A stretch of 64,000 bases of DNA from Flavobacteriaceae bacterium (GCA_029238215.1 JAQWGN010000009.1:31135-95134); one strand, 5' to 3'; shown: positions 36,282 through 45,812, counted from the first letter of the stretch. Numbers and translations: made by a program. The notes: generated from the sequence alone by a model not told the origin.

Positions 36282-37316
36282 ATGAATGCATATCAAAAAT
36301 CAATTCGTGCCTTTTCAAAATTAGGACAGCTTTTTCGCGATTATTCTGAAGGGAATTTGCGGGATGATAATTGGATACAACTTCTTGACAATGCATGTGT
36401 TGAGGCTTCAAGTCAAAACAAATGGTTTACCAAAGATAATTTGTCTTTTTGTATTGCTGTTTGGGGTGAAACATTGACCAAAGAGGCAATTACCTCATGG
36501 CTATCTAACTACAACACGCCTGTAAACACCAAACGACTGGGCCTTGTTTTGGCAGGAAACGTACCTATGGTTGGACTTCATGACTTACTTTGTGGTTTAG
36601 CGTGTGGGTACAGTATACAGGCAAAACGCTCGTCAAACGACACCGTTTTATTGCCCTTTGTTGTTGATTTTCTTGTTGCTGTCGAGCCTTCATGGAAAGA
36701 CACTATACATTTTACAGAAGGCAAGCTCGCCAATTTTGATGCCGTTATTGCCACAGGAAGCAACAATACTGCGCGTTATTTTGAGCACTATTTTAAGGGG
36801 TTTCCACATATCATTCGTAAAACACGAAATGGGGTTGCACTATTGGACGGAACAGAGTCATCAGAAGATTTAGCAGCACTTTGTACGGATATTGTACGCT
36901 ATTTTGGATTGGGCTGTCGTAGTGTTTCACACCTCATAGTCCCCGAAAATTATGACTTTAACAATCTTTTCTTGGCACTCTACGAACATCGTGACATCAT
37001 TCATCACAATGCCTATGCAAACAATTACGATTACAATAAAGCAGTGTACTTGATGCAAGAACTTGATTTACTCGACAACGGATTCATGATGCTGAAAAAG
37101 GATGCTGGTTTAAACTCCCCTATTGCGTGCATCCATTACAGTACATATGCAACACTTGATGAAGCAAAGAATCGCCTTAACGAAGAAGTACAACAGATAC
37201 AATGTGTGGTTAGTAACATCCTTTCAGATGCACTTCCTTTTGGCTCAACACAATACCCAAAACTTATGGACTATGCCGATCATGTGGACACTATGGCTTT
37301 TTTGTTAAAAAACTAA
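36282..37316 (+). CDS. Acyl-CoA reductase (LuxC-like)
   Basis: LGLVLAGNVPMVGLHDLLCGLACG, IRKTRNGVALLDGTES, FGLGCRSVSHLIVPENYD. Confidence 0.87.
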   Translation: MNAYQKSIRAFSKLGQLFRDYSEGNLRDDNWIQLLDNACVEASSQNKWFTKDNLSFCIAVWGETLTKEAITSWLSNYNTPVNTKRLGLVLAGNVPMVGLHDLLCGLACGYSIQAKRSSNDTVLLPFVVDFLVAVEPSWKDTIHFTEGKLANFDAVIATGSNNTARYFEHYFKGFPHIIRKTRNGVALLDGTESSEDLAALCTDIVRYFGLGCRSVSHLIVPENYDFNNLFLALYEHRDIIHHNAYANNYDYNKAVYLMQELDLLDNGFMMLKKDAGLNSPIACIHYSTYATLDEAKNRLNEEVQQIQCVVSNILSDALPFGSTQYPKLMDYADHVDTMAFLLKN

Positions 37317-37376
37317 TATAAATTTCTATGACTAACCGAACAGGTTTTTGTTTCTTTGCTTTTCAAATATTTGAAT

Positions 37377-38441
37377 ATGAAAAAGCACAACTTTAGTGCT
37401 GGACCGTGTATCCTCCCGCAAGAAGTGATGCAGAAAGCGTCACAAGCTGTTGTAGAACTTAACAATTCAGGGTTATCCCTAATAGAAATCTCTCACCGTA
37501 GCCCTGCTTTTATTGAAATCATGGACAAAGCGACTTCGCTAGCTCTAGAGCTTTTAGGACTTGAAGGTAAAGGATATAAAGCTATGTTTCTTCAAGGTGG
37601 CGCTAGCATGCAATTTATTGCTACTGCTTATAACCTCTTAGAGAATAAAGCGGGTTATTGCAACACAGGAACTTGGTCTTCTAAAGCAATTAAAGAAGCA
37701 AAATTAATAGGTGAAGCTATTGAACTATCTTCTTCCAAAGATGCTAATTTCAATTACATCCCTAAAGGATTTGATATCCCAACAGGTTTAGACTACCTGC
37801 ATATAACTACAAATAACACCATATTTGGTACACAGTATAAATCATTACCAGAAACAGCTGCTCCCCTAGTGGCAGACTCTTCCTCAGATATTTTTTCTAG
37901 GGAATTGGATTTTTCTAAGTTTGGATTGATTTATGCCGGAGCACAAAAAAACATGGGCCCAGCAGGAACGACACTAGTTGTGGTTCGCGAAGATGTTTTG
38001 GGTAAGGTATCCCATGCAATTCCTTCAATGTTAGATTATAGTATTCACGCTGATAAAGGAAGTATGTTTAATACACCTCCAGTATTCGCTGTTTACACGT
38101 CCATGCTCAACTTGGAATGGTTAAAAAATAAAGGTGGTATAGCTGCAATTGAAAAGGAAAATAATGCTAAAGCTGCCTTAATGTATGGAGAAGTTGACCG
38201 CAATCCACTGTTTGATGGTTTTGCTGCCGTCGAAGACAGAAGTACAATGAATGCTACTTTTACACTAAACACACCTGAACTTAAAGACACTTTTGAAGCC
38301 ATGGCAAAAGAAGCTGGACTTAATGGAATTAATGGGCACCGCTCTGTTGGTGGCTACCGTGCATCTATGTACAACGCATTACCGATTGCATCGGTACAAG
38401 CCTTAGTAGATGTCATGAAAACACTAGAACAAAACGCTTAA
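37377..38441 (+). CDS. serC: Phosphoserine aminotransferase
   Basis: MKKHNFSAGPCILPQEVMQKA, GLIYAGAQKNMGPAGTTLV; start at 37377. Confidence 0.95.
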   Translation: MKKHNFSAGPCILPQEVMQKASQAVVELNNSGLSLIEISHRSPAFIEIMDKATSLALELLGLEGKGYKAMFLQGGASMQFIATAYNLLENKAGYCNTGTWSSKAIKEAKLIGEAIELSSSKDANFNYIPKGFDIPTGLDYLHITTNNTIFGTQYKSLPETAAPLVADSSSDIFSRELDFSKFGLIYAGAQKNMGPAGTTLVVVREDVLGKVSHAIPSMLDYSIHADKGSMFNTPPVFAVYTSMLNLEWLKNKGGIAAIEKENNAKAALMYGEVDRNPLFDGFAAVEDRSTMNATFTLNTPELKDTFEAMAKEAGLNGINGHRSVGGYRASMYNALPIASVQALVDVMKTLEQNA

Positions 38442-38449
38442 TACTATTT

Positions 38450-39400
38450 ATGAATATTCACGCAAACGACGGAGTTTCTCAAACTGGACAAGATGCATTA
38501 GCAGCTGCAGGTTTTACGATAACAACTACCAATGTAGCACAAGAACAACTTGTTGATTACATCAATGAAAACAACATCACAGGTCTTTTAGTCCGTAGTG
38601 CCACAACGGCTCGTAAGGAGCTTATTGATGCCTGCCCAGGATTAAAGCTCATAGGACGTGGCGGCGTTGGGATGGATAATATTGATGTTGACTATGCTCG
38701 TGAAAAAGGATTGCATGTGATCAATACACCTGCAGCGTCATCAGCATCGGTTGCAGAACTTGTATTTGCTCACCTATTTGGAGCCGTTCGTTTCTTATAC
38801 GATTCTAACCGAAACATGCCTTTAGATGGAGAAACTAAGTTTAAGTCCCTTAAAAAAGCGTATGCCGGAGGTATTGAACTTCGTGGAAAAACACTTGGAG
38901 TTATTGGTTTTGGCCGTATCGGTCAGGCTACAGCAAAAATAGCACTAGGTTTAGGAATGGATGTCGCTGCCTATGATCCTTTTATGGAAGAGGCAACAGT
39001 TGCTGTTGATTTTTTCGATGGACAGTCTGTTAATGTATCCGTTAAAATCAAATCTTTTGATGAAGTGCTAGCACAAGCTGATTTTGTAACACTGCATGTA
39101 CCTGCTCAAGACAAACCAACTATTGGAGCCGCTGAAATGGCAAAAATGAAAGAAGGTGCAGGACTTATTAATTTAGCTCGTGGTGGCGTGGTTGATGAAG
39201 AAGCACTTGTTGAAGCCTTGGATAATGATCATTTAGGGTTTGCTGCCCTAGACACCTTCGTTAATGAGCCGACCCCTGCGGTAAAACTGCTTATGCATTC
39301 AAAAATTTCACTTACTCCTCATATTGGTGCTGCTACCTTGGAAGCGCAAGACCGTATTGGTACAGAACTAGCACAACAGATTAAGGAGCTTTTGGGATAG
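38450..39400 (+). CDS. serA: D-3-phosphoglycerate dehydrogenase
   Basis: LVRSATTARKELIDACPGLKLIGRGGVGMDNIDVDYA, LGVIGFGRIGQ, NLARGGVVDE; downstream of serC. Confidence 0.93.
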   Translation: MNIHANDGVSQTGQDALAAAGFTITTTNVAQEQLVDYINENNITGLLVRSATTARKELIDACPGLKLIGRGGVGMDNIDVDYAREKGLHVINTPAASSASVAELVFAHLFGAVRFLYDSNRNMPLDGETKFKSLKKAYAGGIELRGKTLGVIGFGRIGQATAKIALGLGMDVAAYDPFMEEATVAVDFFDGQSVNVSVKIKSFDEVLAQADFVTLHVPAQDKPTIGAAEMAKMKEGAGLINLARGGVVDEEALVEALDNDHLGFAALDTFVNEPTPAVKLLMHSKISLTPHIGAATLEAQDRIGTELAQQIKELLG

Positions 39401-39718
39401 ATGCAAAAGCTAAAAAAACGCTGGGGAATCCATACTAACACACAGTTGGTTATCATATTTGTGGTTTTTGCTGTTACCGGCTCATCTGCAGCTAAACTTG
39501 CTACACCTTTAACTGAATTTTTTGGAATTACTAAAGATTCTTCTTCTGCTTTTGTTTATTGGTTTGCTCGTATTTTTTTAATATTCCCCATTTATCAGGT
39601 GTTGCTTGTTTTTTTTGGATTTATATTTGGTCAGTTCAGTTTTTTTTGGAACTTTGAAAAGAAGATGCTCAGTCGCATGGGATTAGGTTTTTTGTTCAAA
39701 TCAAAAAATGAAAGCTAA
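39401..39718 (+). CDS. Small membrane protein, DUF6787-like
   Basis: KKRWGIHTNTQLVIIFVVFAVTGSSAAKL, FGQFSFFWNFEKKMLSRM; family recalled only. Confidence 0.65.
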   Translation: MQKLKKRWGIHTNTQLVIIFVVFAVTGSSAAKLATPLTEFFGITKDSSSAFVYWFARIFLIFPIYQVLLVFFGFIFGQFSFFWNFEKKMLSRMGLGFLFKSKNES

Positions 39719-40016
39719 ATTTTTCTTATTCAGGTTGTTGTTTGTAGGGTTAATCTTTTACCCTACGCTCTCTCAGCATGTTCATATTTTTGAACATCAT
39801 GACCATCCTGTTTGCGAAGACAACAGCCTACACTTTCACGAGGGTGATTCATCTTGTGAACTGTTGGATTATGTAACCAATACGCATGCTGTGTTAACAG
39901 CATATTTCGTCAAATCTACTCCCACATGGATTGAGCTGCAAAAAAGTCAGCATCATGCTACACTTTACAACAAGGTTCTTCTTGTTAAGAAGTTGAGAGG
40001 TCCACCTGTGGTATAA
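39708..40016 (+). CDS. Small secreted His-rich protein, predicted metal-binding
   Basis: Signal-like N-terminus then QHVHIFEHHDHPVCEDNSLHFHEGDSSCELLDY. Confidence 0.75.
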   Translation: MKAKFFLFRLLFVGLIFYPTLSQHVHIFEHHDHPVCEDNSLHFHEGDSSCELLDYVTNTHAVLTAYFVKSTPTWIELQKSQHHATLYNKVLLVKKLRGPPVV

Positions 40017-40040
40017 TTTTTTATTGTTTCATTTTTCTTT

Positions 40041-40062
40041 TGTTTATCCAACAGGATAAACA
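40041..40062. promoter_or_regulatory. Perfect 9-4-9 inverted repeat TGTTTATCC-AACA-GGATAAACA
   Basis: In the 79-nt gap before the His-rich lipoprotein gene; no adjacent downstream T-tract. Confidence 0.55.
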
Positions 40063-40094
40063 TTCCTATTAACAACATTTAAAAAAATTATATC

Positions 40095-40676
40095 ATGTTT
40101 AAAAATATCCAAATAAAATCTTTATTACTTGCTGCTGTTGTTTTTCTATCTTCTTGTGAAAAAGAAGATCCAGCGCATATCCATGAAGGTGAAGTAATCA
40201 CCACTTTAGAAGTTACTGTAACTAATCAAGCAGATGATTCACAAGTTATTTATGAGTTTGAAGCTGAGCACGATGATCATGATAATCAAGGGAATGACCA
40301 CGGTGAGCATGAAGCTATTGAACTCGACAGCAATTCTACCTATACATTTGAAGTGCGCTTTTTAAATGAGTCAGACCCTGATAACATAGAAGATATTACT
40401 GTAGAAGTGATAGAAGAAGCCGATGAGCATCAAGTATTTTTTGAGCTTGAAGGTAGCAGTATAACGATTAACGCTGCTTCTGATGACCACAAAGATAGTA
40501 GTAACAACCCCCTTCATATTAAAACGGTTTGGGAAACTACTACGGCTGGAGAAGTTGATGTTATCGCATACTTAATTCACGAGCCCACTTCAAAAACAGG
40601 GAACTCTCGTAATGACTTTGGCGGATCTGTAGATGCAGAAATAGAATTTGAAGCTCATGTAGAGGACACACCCTAG
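40095..40676 (+). CDS. His/Asp/Glu-rich lipoprotein, predicted metal-binding
   Basis: SSCEKEDPAHIHEGE lipobox; EHDDHDNQGNDHGEHEAIE; upstream of TonB receptor. Confidence 0.75.
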   Translation: MFKNIQIKSLLLAAVVFLSSCEKEDPAHIHEGEVITTLEVTVTNQADDSQVIYEFEAEHDDHDNQGNDHGEHEAIELDSNSTYTFEVRFLNESDPDNIEDITVEVIEEADEHQVFFELEGSSITINAASDDHKDSSNNPLHIKTVWETTTAGEVDVIAYLIHEPTSKTGNSRNDFGGSVDAEIEFEAHVEDTP

Positions 40677-40679
40677 ATC

Positions 40680-43133
40680 GTGATTCTTTATTCAATGCTT
40701 TTAAAATACAGCAATTTTAGTTGCTGCAATGTATTCAAAACAGTAGTCGGTATATTTTTACTGACTACTAGTTTTGGGTATTCCCAAAACTGTAATTTAT
40801 CTATTACAGGAAAAGTAATAAGTTTTCATGACAAAAAACCCTTAGAAACAGCAGTTGTTCAAATAGTTGGCGAAACTAAAAATGCTGTTACTTCAGTCGA
40901 TGGTGTCTTTGTATTTGAAAACCTATGCCCTAAAAAACTTACGATCAAAATCTCGCACATCAATTGTGAGGATTTTGTAACTAAAATCGATTTGACAGCA
41001 TCCGTTACGTTAGAGTTGTTTATGGATCACCATATTGAAACACTCGAGGAAGTTGTAATATCAAAAGAGAGAACAGATAAACTTTCATCAACAACCAAAG
41101 TTTATTCGCTGACTGAATCTGAAAAAGAACGGTACAACACAAAAGGATTAGCAGGTGCGCTAGAGCAAATTAGTGGCGTGAATACACTCTCAACAGGAAA
41201 CAGCATTGCCAAACCTGTTATACATGGAATGTTTGGAAGCCGAGTGGGTATTGTTTACAATAATTTGATGCTTGAAAATCAGCAATGGGGACAAGATCAC
41301 GCACCAAACATTGATATCAATGCATTTGAAGACATTCGTGTAATTAAGGGAGCATCTGCACTAAAATATGCCGGTTCTATCGCTGGTGGTATAGTTGTAC
41401 TTGAGTCTAGTTTACCAATACCTATAGATTCTTTGTATGGAAAAACAATACTGAATGGAATGACCAATGGAAAAGGAATGGGAATTGTTAGTTCATGGGT
41501 GAAATCTTATGAAAACGGCACCTATATCAAGGCGCAAGGTACTCTTAGAAAAAATGGAGATTTCTCAGCACCCAATTACATGCTTACCAATACAGGAAGC
41601 CATGAGAAAAACATTGCCCTTTCTGTTGGAAAAAATGGATTTCACAGCATGTGGAATGTATATTTTAGTTATTTCAATACTGAAATTGCCATACTCAAAA
41701 GCGCTCATATTGGAAGTATTCGTGATTTATTAGGAGCTATTGAGGCGGATAGCCCCAGTGTAATTGAACCATTTGCTTATGGTATAGAATCGCCAAAACA
41801 AGCAAATACGCATCATACAACGAGTTTATCCTATTCAAAATTTTTGAGTTCAAATCAAAAGCTAAACATCAAATACAGCTGGCAGAAAAATAATCGCGAA
41901 GAATACGACCTTAGAAGAGGAGATCTTAAATATACCCCTGCAATCGATTTACGTCTAAACACACATGATATAACTACTAATTATGAATGGTCAAGAAATA
42001 AGGGTTCTTACGATGGGGGCTTATTTTTTCAAGTACAAGACAATTACTCGAACCCCGATACGGAAGTGAGGCGATTAATTCCTGATTATTTAAAAGTAAA
42101 ATGGGGTGGCTATGCTACCGCTTCCTTTAACCTCTCAGACAAAGTCAACTATGCCATTGGAATGCGTTACGAGCATCAAAGCAATGACGTTAGAAAATGG
42201 TATCGAAACAATCGATGGGAATCAAAAAACTATGAAGAATTGCTGGGTTCTTATGTCATCAACGAAGTTGTAGGACAGCGATTGGTTTCAAGAGATCTTA
42301 TCTTTAATACAGTATCCTTTTCAACTGGTGTTCGCTATATGCCTTCATCCAGATACAGAATAGCCTTGAATTTTAATTACGCTGAACGTGCTCCAGATAT
42401 TGCAGAAATGTTTAGTGACGGATTGCATCATTCATTAGCAACTATTGAATATGGAAATCCTTTTTTAACAAAAGAAAAAACGCACAAACTGGTTTTAGAT
42501 GTTGAAAAAAGAGAAGGCCTATTTACGTTTATAGCAAGTCCTTTTATAACATTTGGAGAGCACTACATTATCATTGAACCAACCGGAGTTGAACAAACTA
42601 TTAGAGGGGCATTTCCTGTTTGGGAGTATTCAGCTGTCAATGCCCTATTAGCAGGAATTGATGTGGATTTAACTTATGAAATTAACTCAGAATTAGAATT
42701 TAGACAAAGTACGTCTTGGGTGCATGGCACAAACAAAAACACCGAAAAGCCACTCATTATTCCCCCAGTAACAACTACGAATCAAATTAGGTATTCACCA
42801 CAAAAATGGAACGCTTTTTCAATAGCGCTACATAGTAAAATTACTTTTACACAACATCGATTTCCTTTGAATAATCCAGATGATGTTCCTGTAATTGAGA
42901 ATGGACAGAAGCTCTACAAAGAAGTTGATATAAGTACACCTCCAAATGGGTATCACAATCTTGGGCTTGATTTGAATTGGGGTCCATACAAAATCAAGGA
43001 AAGTGCTATTAATATTGGACTTTCATTTGACAACCTTTTTAACGTAGGCTATAGAGACTACATGAATAGACTACGGTTTTACGCTGATGAAGCAGGAAGA
43101 AATGTGATGTTTCAAATCAAAATATCACATTGA
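40680..43133 (+). CDS. TonB-dependent outer membrane receptor with carboxypeptidase-regulatory-like N-domain
   Basis: ITGKVISFHDKKPLETAVVQIVGETKNAVTSVDGVFVFENL; plug LEQISGVNTLSTGNSIAKPVIHGMFGSRVGIVYNN; C-terminal barrel ending FQIKISH. Confidence 0.92.
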   Translation: MILYSMLLKYSNFSCCNVFKTVVGIFLLTTSFGYSQNCNLSITGKVISFHDKKPLETAVVQIVGETKNAVTSVDGVFVFENLCPKKLTIKISHINCEDFVTKIDLTASVTLELFMDHHIETLEEVVISKERTDKLSSTTKVYSLTESEKERYNTKGLAGALEQISGVNTLSTGNSIAKPVIHGMFGSRVGIVYNNLMLENQQWGQDHAPNIDINAFEDIRVIKGASALKYAGSIAGGIVVLESSLPIPIDSLYGKTILNGMTNGKGMGIVSSWVKSYENGTYIKAQGTLRKNGDFSAPNYMLTNTGSHEKNIALSVGKNGFHSMWNVYFSYFNTEIAILKSAHIGSIRDLLGAIEADSPSVIEPFAYGIESPKQANTHHTTSLSYSKFLSSNQKLNIKYSWQKNNREEYDLRRGDLKYTPAIDLRLNTHDITTNYEWSRNKGSYDGGLFFQVQDNYSNPDTEVRRLIPDYLKVKWGGYATASFNLSDKVNYAIGMRYEHQSNDVRKWYRNNRWESKNYEELLGSYVINEVVGQRLVSRDLIFNTVSFSTGVRYMPSSRYRIALNFNYAERAPDIAEMFSDGLHHSLATIEYGNPFLTKEKTHKLVLDVEKREGLFTFIASPFITFGEHYIIIEPTGVEQTIRGAFPVWEYSAVNALLAGIDVDLTYEINSELEFRQSTSWVHGTNKNTEKPLIIPPVTTTNQIRYSPQKWNAFSIALHSKITFTQHRFPLNNPDDVPVIENGQKLYKEVDISTPPNGYHNLGLDLNWGPYKIKESAINIGLSFDNLFNVGYRDYMNRLRFYADEAGRNVMFQIKISH

Positions 43134-43156
43134 TTTCTGATTAAACCATCAGATTA

Positions 43157-43753
43157 TCAAGACAGTTTTCCTTGTATGAGTTTTAAAAATTCGTTTCGGG
43201 TTTCCATGGCCTCAAAAGCACCGCGAAATCCAGAAGTCGTAGTAAGCGAATTTTGTTTTTGCACACCCCGCATCATCATGCACATATGAGCAGCTTCAAT
43301 CACAATGGCTACCCCTTTTGGTTTTAGGGTTTCATCAATACAATTCATTATTTGTTCTGTAAGTCGTTCTTGAACCTGTAAACGACGTGCAAAAACATCG
43401 ACAACACGTGGTATTTTGCTTAAACCAACAATATGACCATTTGGGATATAAGCGATATGCGCTTTACCAAAAAATGGTAACATATGGTGTTCACAAAGCG
43501 AATACACTTCAATGTCCTTAACCAATACCATTTCATTGTAGGTTTCAGCGAACTTTGCACCCTCTAAAATTGCAGCAGGATCCATTTCATACCCTTGCGT
43601 TAAAAACTGCATAGCCTTGGCTGCACGTTTTGGTGTTTCAATCAAACCTTCTCTGTAAGGATTTTCACCAAGGTCAGTGAGTACTTCTAAATAATGCTTT
43701 TGCATCGATGTTGTAATATCAACATCATACACATGTTTTGTCTCAAATGACAT
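43157..43753 (-). CDS. folE: GTP cyclohydrolase I
   Basis: [49 protein letters not shown]. Confidence 0.96.
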
Positions 43754-43754
43754 A

Positions 43755-44282
43755 CTATTTTAATTTAGATGAATATTTTTCAACCAATTTTTGAACTTTG
43801 GGAGTAATCACTGCAGTACAATAAGGTTGATTTTTATTTAGATTATAATAATCATGATGATCTACTTCTGCTGGATAAAAAACGTCAAAAGCATTTAGCT
43901 CAGTAACAATTGGGTTTTTGAACACCAATGCATTTGTAACTTTTTGAATAAACTGTGATGCTGCAATCTTTTGTTCTTCATTGTGATAAAAAATTGCTGA
44001 TCGGTATTGTGTTCCAACATCATTTCCTTGGCGATTTAAGGTTGTTGGATCATGTGTGTCAAAAAAAACAGCCAATAATGTTTCAAAACTTATTATATCA
44101 GGCTCAAAATCAATTTGAACACATTCAGCATGACCAGTACGACCTGTACAAACTTCTCTGTAAGGTGGATTTTTTATAAAACCCCCGGTATATCCTGGAA
44201 CTGTTCTTGAAACACCATCAAGACGTGAAAAAAGGGTTTCCGTACACCAAAAACACCCACCGGCAAAGGTTGCTTGCTCCAT
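43755..44282 (-). CDS. msrA: Peptide-methionine (S)-S-oxide reductase
   Basis: [36 protein letters not shown]; start moved to 44282. Confidence 0.95.
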
Positions 44283-44391
44283 ATTTATTAATAAATATTT
44301 ATACAAATTTATACAAATTTGTTTGCTATCCTTTATAAAAAGAAGATTGTTTATTGATATAAAAAAATGAAAATGGTTACTTTGCAACAAT

Positions 44392-45051
44392 ATGATACAG
44401 GCAAGAGCATTATCAAAAGCTTATGGCAATACAGAAGTATTAAAAGCCATTGATTTCTCACTTAAACCTGCAGAAATTGTTTCTATTGTAGGACCTTCTG
44501 GAGCAGGAAAAACTACCCTTTTACACATATTGGGAACCTTAGAACACGCTGATAAACATGCAAAATCAACGCTTAGTATTGATGGAATTAGAATAGATTC
44601 ACTTTCAGATAAGGCATTGTCATCTTTTAGAAATAATACCTTGGGTTTTGTTTTTCAAAACCACCAACTTCTTCCAGAGTTTACCGCTCTCGAGAACATT
44701 TGTTTACCTGCCTATATTAAAGGAACTTCGAAGAAAAAGGCTGAAGAGAAAGCCTTAGAATTATTAGCCTACTTTGGACTTGAAAATAGAGCGCAGCATA
44801 AACCATCCATGCTATCTGGTGGTGAACAACAGCGAGTAGCTGTAGCACGTGCGCTAATCAATAATCCAAAATTACTTCTTGCCGATGAGCCTAGTGGGAA
44901 TTTAGACTCGGCATCAGCAAAGCAATTGCATGATTTATTTTTTCAACTTAGAGACCGTTTTTCACTTAGCATAATATTAGTAACTCATAACACAACACTT
45001 GCCGCTAGAGCTGATCGTATGCTAACATTAGTAGATGGAGAATGGGGTTAA
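44392..45051 (+). CDS. ABC transporter ATP-binding protein (LolD-like)
   Basis: Walker [16 protein letters not shown], signature [26 protein letters not shown]. Confidence 0.92.
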
Positions 45052-45812
45052 ATCAAGAAGAATTAAAATCGTTTTTAAACGAAAAGGCATTACAGTATAA
45101 CACAAAATCGTTTATTGCTGAAGACCCTATTCAAGTGCCACATTTTTTTTCTAAAAAAGAAGATATTGAAATTGCTGGTTTTTTTGCTGCAACAATTGCT
45201 TGGGGGAACCGTAAAAGCATATTAACCAATGCCAAAAAGCTGATGGCGTGTATGGATAATGCACCGCATGATTTTATTTTAAATCACAAAATAACAGATT
45301 TAACTGTGTTTGATGATTTTGTTCATCGCACTTTTAATGCAATTGATACTCGTTATTTTGCGCAACGATTACAGCAGCTATACCAACAACATGATAGCCT
45401 AGAAGTGTTGTTTACTCCTACTCCATCTGCGAACGCCATGCATGATACCCTTACAAGGTTTCACAATACTTTTTTTGAAACAGCGCATCCCAAAAGAACA
45501 ACAAAACATATTGCTAATCCTGCTAAAAAATCAGCAGCTAAAAGAATGCATATGTTTTTGCGCTGGATGGTGCGATCGGATGCCGCTGGCGTTGATTTAG
45601 GGATTTGGAAGTCTATTCCTATGAAGCTACTTTCCTGCCCGCTTGATGTGCATTCTGGCCATGTTGCACGTTCCTTGGGGCTTTTAAAACGTAAACAAAA
45701 TGACCTGTTAGCCGTTCAAGAGTTAGATAAACAACTCCGTATTTTAGACCCCGTTGACCCTGTTAAATATGATTTTGCTCTCTTTGGATTAGGCGTATTT
45801 GAAAGCTTTTAG
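45042..45812 (+). CDS. TIGR02757 family protein
   Basis: FFAATIAWGNRKSILTNAKKLM, KRMHMFLRWMVRSDAAGVDLGIWKSIPMKLLSCPLDVHSGHVARSLGLL. Confidence 0.85.
   Translation: MGLNQEELKSFLNEKALQYNTKSFIAEDPIQVPHFFSKKEDIEIAGFFAATIAWGNRKSILTNAKKLMACMDNAPHDFILNHKITDLTVFDDFVHRTFNAIDTRYFAQRLQQLYQQHDSLEVLFTPTPSANAMHDTLTRFHNTFFETAHPKRTTKHIANPAKKSAAKRMHMFLRWMVRSDAAGVDLGIWKSIPMKLLSCPLDVHSGHVARSLGLLKRKQNDLLAVQELDKQLRILDPVDPVKYDFALFGLGVFESF

Follow-up and report, generated by a model that had tools for sequence, protein, structure and literature searches.

Three open reading frames (ORFs) lie in tandem on the plus strand of a 64,000-nucleotide (nt) window, the whole stretch of DNA analyzed here, from a small marine flavobacterium (Flavobacteriaceae bacterium; GCA_029238215.1, JAQWGN010000009.1:31135-95134). 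The first, here termed HIS (positions 39708 to 40016; 102 amino acids), encodes a predicted exported leader peptide and putative nascent-chain metal sensor. The second, LIPO (40095 to 40676; 193 amino acids), encodes a lipoprotein predicted to be the surface-exposed partner of a receptor, and the third (40680 to 43133; 817 amino acids) a ZnuD-like TonB-dependent receptor (TBDR), whose GTG start codon at 40680 is 3 nt past the LIPO stop (40676). These coordinates agree with an original prediction, made from the sequence alone, of three consecutive same-strand genes with the receptor 3 nt after the lipoprotein, and the His-rich strings quoted there were found in the proteins. We propose that the cassette is a zinc-type uptake operon under the control of HIS as a metal-sensing leader peptide, a reading to which we assign a probability of about 0.6.

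Conservation of the three-gene cassette

Loci seeded with the TBDR contained HIS in 38 of 41 cases and LIPO likewise in 38 of 41. Of 76 LIPO finds, 71 lie next to a TBDR on the same strand, and for 105 of the 114 HIS homologues retrieved from Flavobacteriaceae and the wider Bacteroidia there is a TBDR no more than 1.3 kb downstream. This arrangement far exceeds chance expectation; the three genes are genuine and form an ancient, conserved cassette. The joint occurrence of the three families, which the original prediction had named as a check, is thus borne out. Some genomes (five examples) encode two to three HIS paralogues, several of which precede different receptor subfamilies. Separately, HIS homologues with R[AG]PP and no ZnuD-like receptor within 1.3 kb downstream were recorded at seven loci, including L128:2885-3217, L141:10634-11014, and L147:9524-9889.

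HIS ends in an arrest-like motif at a fixed distance from a His/Cys core

Alignments of relatives unveiled a common layout of HIS, which carries an export signal: a hydrophobic start, a core with the pattern H26...H30...C36...H42-x-H44...C50, a variable stretch, and L-R-[G/A]-P-P before the stop. In the window the core extends from 39783 to 39857, and the top-residue frequencies at its six positions over 74 sequences are 99% (H26), 76% (H30), 96% (C36), 96% (H42), 80% (H44), and 99% (C50). The codons of R97-G98-P99-P100, the predicted ribosome-arrest motif (39996 to 40007), are located two codons before the stop, and the R and both P residues are 100% conserved in the alignment. R[AG]PP was found in 113/114 homologues (78 RGPP and 35 RAPP), mostly two to three residues before the stop. 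As a control for circularity, a model was built from HIS residues 1 to 60 only, thus excluding the motif; 100 of its 103 matches carry R[AG]PP at most eight residues from the stop, the other three being an apparent frameshift, a longer tail, and an RPPP variant. In the other ORFs of the retrieved loci, the motif occurred only three times in 621,544 residues and never near the end.

Mean top-residue frequency is 0.45 at residues 23 to 52, 0.23 at residues 53 to 94, and 0.77 at residues 95 to 100. Across the unconserved stretch of ∼42 residues, the distance from the core Cys to the Arg of the motif is nonetheless 46 to 50 residues in 111 of the 112 measurable homologues; such conservation of length without conservation of sequence is what would be needed of a ruler through the ribosome tunnel. 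The original prediction regarded HIS as a secreted metal carrier. A regulatory arrest peptide is a better match to the C-terminal R[GA]PP and the fixed core-to-motif spacing. HIS is thus in all likelihood no accessory metal binder and, judging by these sequence features, probably serves as the arrest leader of this operon.

The HIS protein of the window falls below the gathering cutoff of Pfam PF11162 (DUF2946), with no match at all. Eleven of 48 relatives match DUF2946 weakly (best E value, 0.0011), one Bacteroidia protein above the cutoff ends in LRGPP, and the CxxC is kept in most homologues of the wider Bacteroidia. HIS is not filed here as a DUF2946 member because it is below the cutoff and lacks the CXXC; it probably works like CruR, the copper-responsive member of that family discussed below.

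The receptor resembles ZnuD and carries a predicted zinc site

Pfam searches assigned plug, barrel, and CarbopepD_reg_2 domains to the TBDR. NCBIfam returned matches below cutoff to haem, ZnuD, and copper receptors, the best score being that of the haem receptor model TIGR01785 (97 bits; cutoff, 316.85); ZnuD model NF038289 scored 72.1 bits and did not reach its cutoff of 950. The best PDB sequence was ZnuD (phmmer, E value of 4e-12). A TBDR profile searched against the PDB gave 104.8 bits for ZnuD and 80 bits for OprC, and a profile including related receptors of other Bacteroidia gave 187 bits for ZnuD, 118 bits for a haem receptor, and 68 bits for OprC. ZnuD was also the top PDB fold match of the AlphaFold model (predicted local distance difference test [pLDDT], 78), with OprC close behind.

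The zinc ligands of Neisseria meningitidis ZnuD (PDB 4RDR) are Asp99, His100, Glu340, and His499 (PMC4557270). We inferred that the PDB chain and the numbering of that paper differ by 14 residues, which fits the Asp-His pair and His499 alike. With this offset, D206-H207 in the plug (41295 to 41300) align with Asp99-His100 and H583 (42426 to 42428) with His499, while the invariant E408 (41901 to 41903) lies in the segment of Glu340, in inexact register. We counted this signature in 104 receptors whose genes follow HIS: the plug acidic residue (53 Glu, 49 Asp) followed by His is present in 102/102 readable receptors, and the invariant Glu and the second His in 100/100. D/E-H, E, and H are also present in five receptors of the same family that have no selected HIS gene, whereas 15 unrelated receptors at the same loci lack them. 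The Cys/Met pair that we take to form the plug-loop copper ligands of OprC is missing in the window receptor family, the aligned positions being Q and D (Q-W-G-x-D/E-H). The missing Cys/Met, together with the ZnuD-type residues, favors zinc over copper but falls short of proof, because the copper receptor CrtA is likewise without conserved Cys or Met (PMC12914433). The window receptor differs from ZnuD in that identity is only ∼15% over the fold, in its extra N-terminal CarbopepD_reg_2 domain, and in having a partner lipoprotein. Still, with ZnuD as the best PDB match by sequence, profile, and fold and with D/E-H...E...H conserved, the earlier assignment as a metal receptor, probably for zinc, is supported.

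At eight loci, another TonB receptor, lacking the D/E-H signature, is located ∼1.1 kb 3′ of the cassette receptor; at one of them (L071), a Rieske-like lipoprotein gene on the opposite strand lies between the two.

LIPO is a predicted surface lipoprotein

LIPO has a lipobox whose Cys21 is the first residue of the sequence C-E-K-E-D (40155 to 40169), which fits C-X-K-(D/E)2, the surface-export signal of Bacteroidetes lipoproteins (PMC5080379), and it is therefore predicted to reside at the cell surface. The His-rich string that had given this protein its description as a His-rich lipoprotein is indeed present (residues 58 to 73, EHDDHDNQGNDHGEHE; 40266 to 40313), but it is a lineage-specific insert of near relatives, missing from distant homologues, and was ruled out as the defining feature of LIPO. 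Conserved instead are the lipobox with its surface-export signal, E33, Y83, H112, H162, G177, and D180, of which the invariant E33, Y83, H112, H162, and D180 are candidate binding-site residues. LIPO lies 5′ of the receptor in the window genus and near relatives and 3′ in most others. It accompanies the receptor subfamily closest to that of the window; receptors scoring ∼300 bits are without it.

AlphaFold predicted a confident beta-sandwich (pLDDT, 87.6). Foldseek comparison with the PDB retrieved generic Ig-like beta-sandwich matches only, none below an E value of 0.001, and Pfam and NCBIfam searches placed LIPO in no recognized family. Weak Pfam matches to ZrgA (best E value, 0.018; six members) were judged compositional, due to the His-rich insert, and kinship was rejected. 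Receptor-lipoprotein pairs of Bacteroidota include SusC-SusD, BtuB-BtuG, and HmuR-HmuY. As in these pairs, the LIPO gene adjoins a TonB receptor gene and its product bears a surface-export signal; unlike their lipoproteins, LIPO belongs to no recognized family. LIPO is the putative surface partner of the receptor. Our literature search found no publication that links zinc and ZnuD-like receptors with lipoproteins in Bacteroides.

Intergenic hairpin, neighborhood, and metal genes

Between the HIS stop and LIPO there is a 9-bp perfect hairpin, TGTTTATCC-AACA-GGATAAACA (40041 to 40062), with a P value of ∼0.01 versus shuffled sequence, which is moderate evidence. A hairpin with a different stem sequence occurs at a similar distance in many relatives, reaching a P value of ≤0.05 in 11 of 39 close relatives (∼2 expected), although these are not independent. 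No U tract follows, which ruled out an intrinsic terminator, and the next start codon is left uncovered; as a speculation, terminated transcripts might be trimmed back to the hairpin at their 3′ ends. An Rfam scan of 37000 to 44500 gave no matches.

Upstream of the cassette and on the same strand are serC, serA, and a DUF6787 gene (39401 to 39718; Pfam), and downstream is the convergent folE. The order serC-serA-(DUF6787)-cassette-folE-msrA-lolD is conserved across Flavobacteriaceae (36282 to 45812 in the window and five further loci), with the LIPO/receptor order swapped in the window genus relative to the other neighborhoods. As clues to the metal these neighbors were discarded, as serC, serA, folE, msrA, and lolD indicate no single one. 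The genome (1.67 Mb; assembly 88% complete) holds one FUR-family gene and two ZIP genes, and no ZnuB-type (ABC-3) permease was found in it. Such an inventory agrees with ZIP as the route of zinc entry and with a mode of control different from a classic Zur-znuABC system.

Relation to known arrest peptides and proposed mechanism

The kind of system proposed here is already known, and Bacteroidota members are implied by earlier work. Bordetella CruR (DUF2946), encoded upstream of a TonB receptor gene, has CXXC at residues 90 to 93 and RAPP at residues 139 to 142; mutation of the RAPP abolishes expression of what lies downstream, mutation of the CXXC removes the control by copper, and with five residues added to the spacing, control is impaired (PMC9426467). 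In the CruR scheme, the stall is lifted by metal, and transcription is then terminated by Rho; the authors of the CruR work point out that neither copper nor zinc has a known riboswitch. Arrest has been shown in vitro for CruR, and arrest activity has been reported for RGPP; bacterial proteomes avoid both RAPP and RGPP, the latter being among the most avoided tetrapeptides, and the two are overrepresented at the ends of small exported proteins whose genes precede TonB receptor genes, among others, across Gram-negative groups (PMC12992588). The CutF-like proteins listed by the authors of the work on CutF include some from Bacteroidota and some with TonB neighbors (PMC9973294).

Like CruR (PF11162; Bordetella pertussis cruR-bfrG/crtA-bp2921; PMC9426467, PMC12914433), a small exported protein directly upstream of a TonB receptor, HIS ends in R-[A/G]-P-P just before the stop, and the 49 and 46 residues from C90 and C93 to R139 of CruR compare with 46 to 50 in the HIS family. 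Specific to the present case are the His/Cys core with an incomplete CXXC (C-E-L-L) and no Pfam match, a receptor of the ZnuD rather than the CrtA type, a surface lipoprotein in place of the PepSY_TM protein, and zinc, by inference, in place of copper. CutF of Rhodobacter capsulatus is likewise a nascent exported metal sensor with an intergenic stem-loop, and its metal motif is followed, 45 residues on, by a Pro-rich stalling-like motif at the C terminus (PMC9973294). However, copper-bound CutF enhances expression of a downstream copper oxidase, and its stem-loop hides the Shine-Dalgarno site, whereas the downstream gene in the window serves uptake and the hairpin is off the next start codon. 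With ApdA, ApdP, and the Streptomyces lividans set (PMC10951233, PMC12992588), HIS shares an RGPP that ends a small exported protein upstream of a co-directional gene; it differs in that its arrest is predicted and its core suggests sensing of metal rather than of export.

Gene conservation, the C-terminal motif, the fixed spacing, the receptor linkage, the receptor residues, and the surface-export signal were all computed here and form the base of the following model. Translation of HIS would start export of the short chain, placing the His/Cys core ∼47 to 71 residues from the peptidyl-transferase centre by the time translation arrives at R97-G-P-P. A core free of metal would leave the ribosome stalled there, and this stalled ribosome would allow expression to continue into LIPO and the receptor. 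Metal on the core, presumably zinc, would relieve the arrest and let the ribosome leave, and downstream expression would fall, probably through Rho-dependent termination between the genes. The receptor would thus be made only under metal scarcity, taking the ion through its ZnuD-like site with LIPO as surface partner. An uptake operon should be off in metal plenty, and the CruR scheme of relief followed by Rho therefore gives the right sign. If HIS is an arrest leader, zinc is the better supported choice as its main ion, by a modest lead.

Alternative explanations

The most serious competitor keeps the leader mechanism and changes the ion to copper (or nickel, cobalt, or another transition metal), HIS then being the Bacteroidota counterpart of CruR and the receptor an importer of that metal. 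All characterized leaders of the CruR/CutF type sense copper (PMC9426467, PMC9973294), many Bacteroidia homologues keep the CxxC, OprC follows ZnuD closely in fold, and CrtA shows that a copper receptor can do without conserved Cys/Met ligands. The residues of the receptor point the other way: D/E-H and the His at ZnuD ligand positions occur in all readable receptors, the OprC-type Cys/Met is missing, and ZnuD outscores OprC in both profiles. In addition, the second Cys of the CXXC was lost in the window clade, and Cu-related upstream ORFs have been reported absent from Bacteroidota (PMC12992588). We regard a metal other than zinc as rather unlikely, though less so than any further alternative. 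Haem as the substrate, with HIS and LIPO sensing or capturing it, would account for TIGR01785 being the best NCBIfam score, and ZnuD itself resembles haem receptors (PMC4557270). That score is nevertheless far under its cutoff, ZnuD beats haem receptors in the PDB profiles, every receptor has an acidic residue, a zinc-ligand feature of ZnuD, ahead of the plug His, and none of the genes seen beside the cassette is a haem gene, which makes this explanation highly improbable.

Two further explanations concern HIS itself. As a stable secreted or periplasmic metal binder that passes metal to or from the receptor, as first suggested, it would be expected to have its export signal, its conserved His and Cys residues, and its link to a metal-type receptor; but such a role leaves the R[GA]PP before the stop, a tetrapeptide in its RGPP form so strongly avoided elsewhere, the fixed core-to-motif length, and the near-constant place upstream of the receptor unexplained, and we consider it improbable. 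Alternatively, HIS might be a SecM-like export monitor in which the metal-ligand pattern is incidental, since arrest peptides of the RAPP type act as export monitors when encoded upstream of sec genes (PMC10951233, PMC12992588) and HIS has an export signal. Here, however, the downstream gene is almost always a metal-type receptor and not sec, and the conserved core residues are metal ligands, so that of all the explanations we give this one the least credence.

Several observations weigh against a zinc-type operon led by HIS. Known metal-sensing arrest peptides respond to copper; the window HIS has no Pfam match, and its clade lost the second Cys of the DUF2946 CXXC (C50-E-L-L); and E408 aligns five residues before ZnuD Glu340, not exactly on it. 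Nine of the 114 HIS homologues are without a receptor within 1.3 kb downstream, at least one of them at a contig end. HIS adjoins the receptor on its 5′ side in the remaining 105, but in the window it overlaps the DUF6787 gene by 11 nt and is thus not visibly the first gene of its transcription unit, which it may not head in this genome. Consistently, a promoter scan with the Bacteroidota pattern gave no plus-strand site before HIS and no excess over chance.

Implications

HIS may be the founding zinc-sensing arrest peptide of a Bacteroidota-wide family, in which Zn(II) on the nascent His/Cys core would govern release of the ribosome at R[GA]PP and thereby turn ZnuD-like receptor operons off, replacing or supplementing Zur; we hold this broader proposal tentatively, at slightly below even odds. 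If it is true, the arrest tail known from the copper sensors would be joined to a His/Cys core ahead of zinc-type receptors, nascent-chain sensing would be modular, with the metal set by the core, and the uncharacterized surface lipoprotein would stand out as a candidate partner in zinc uptake. It would also provide a testable post-transcriptional switch for Bacteroidota, a group in which little is known of how zinc uptake is controlled.

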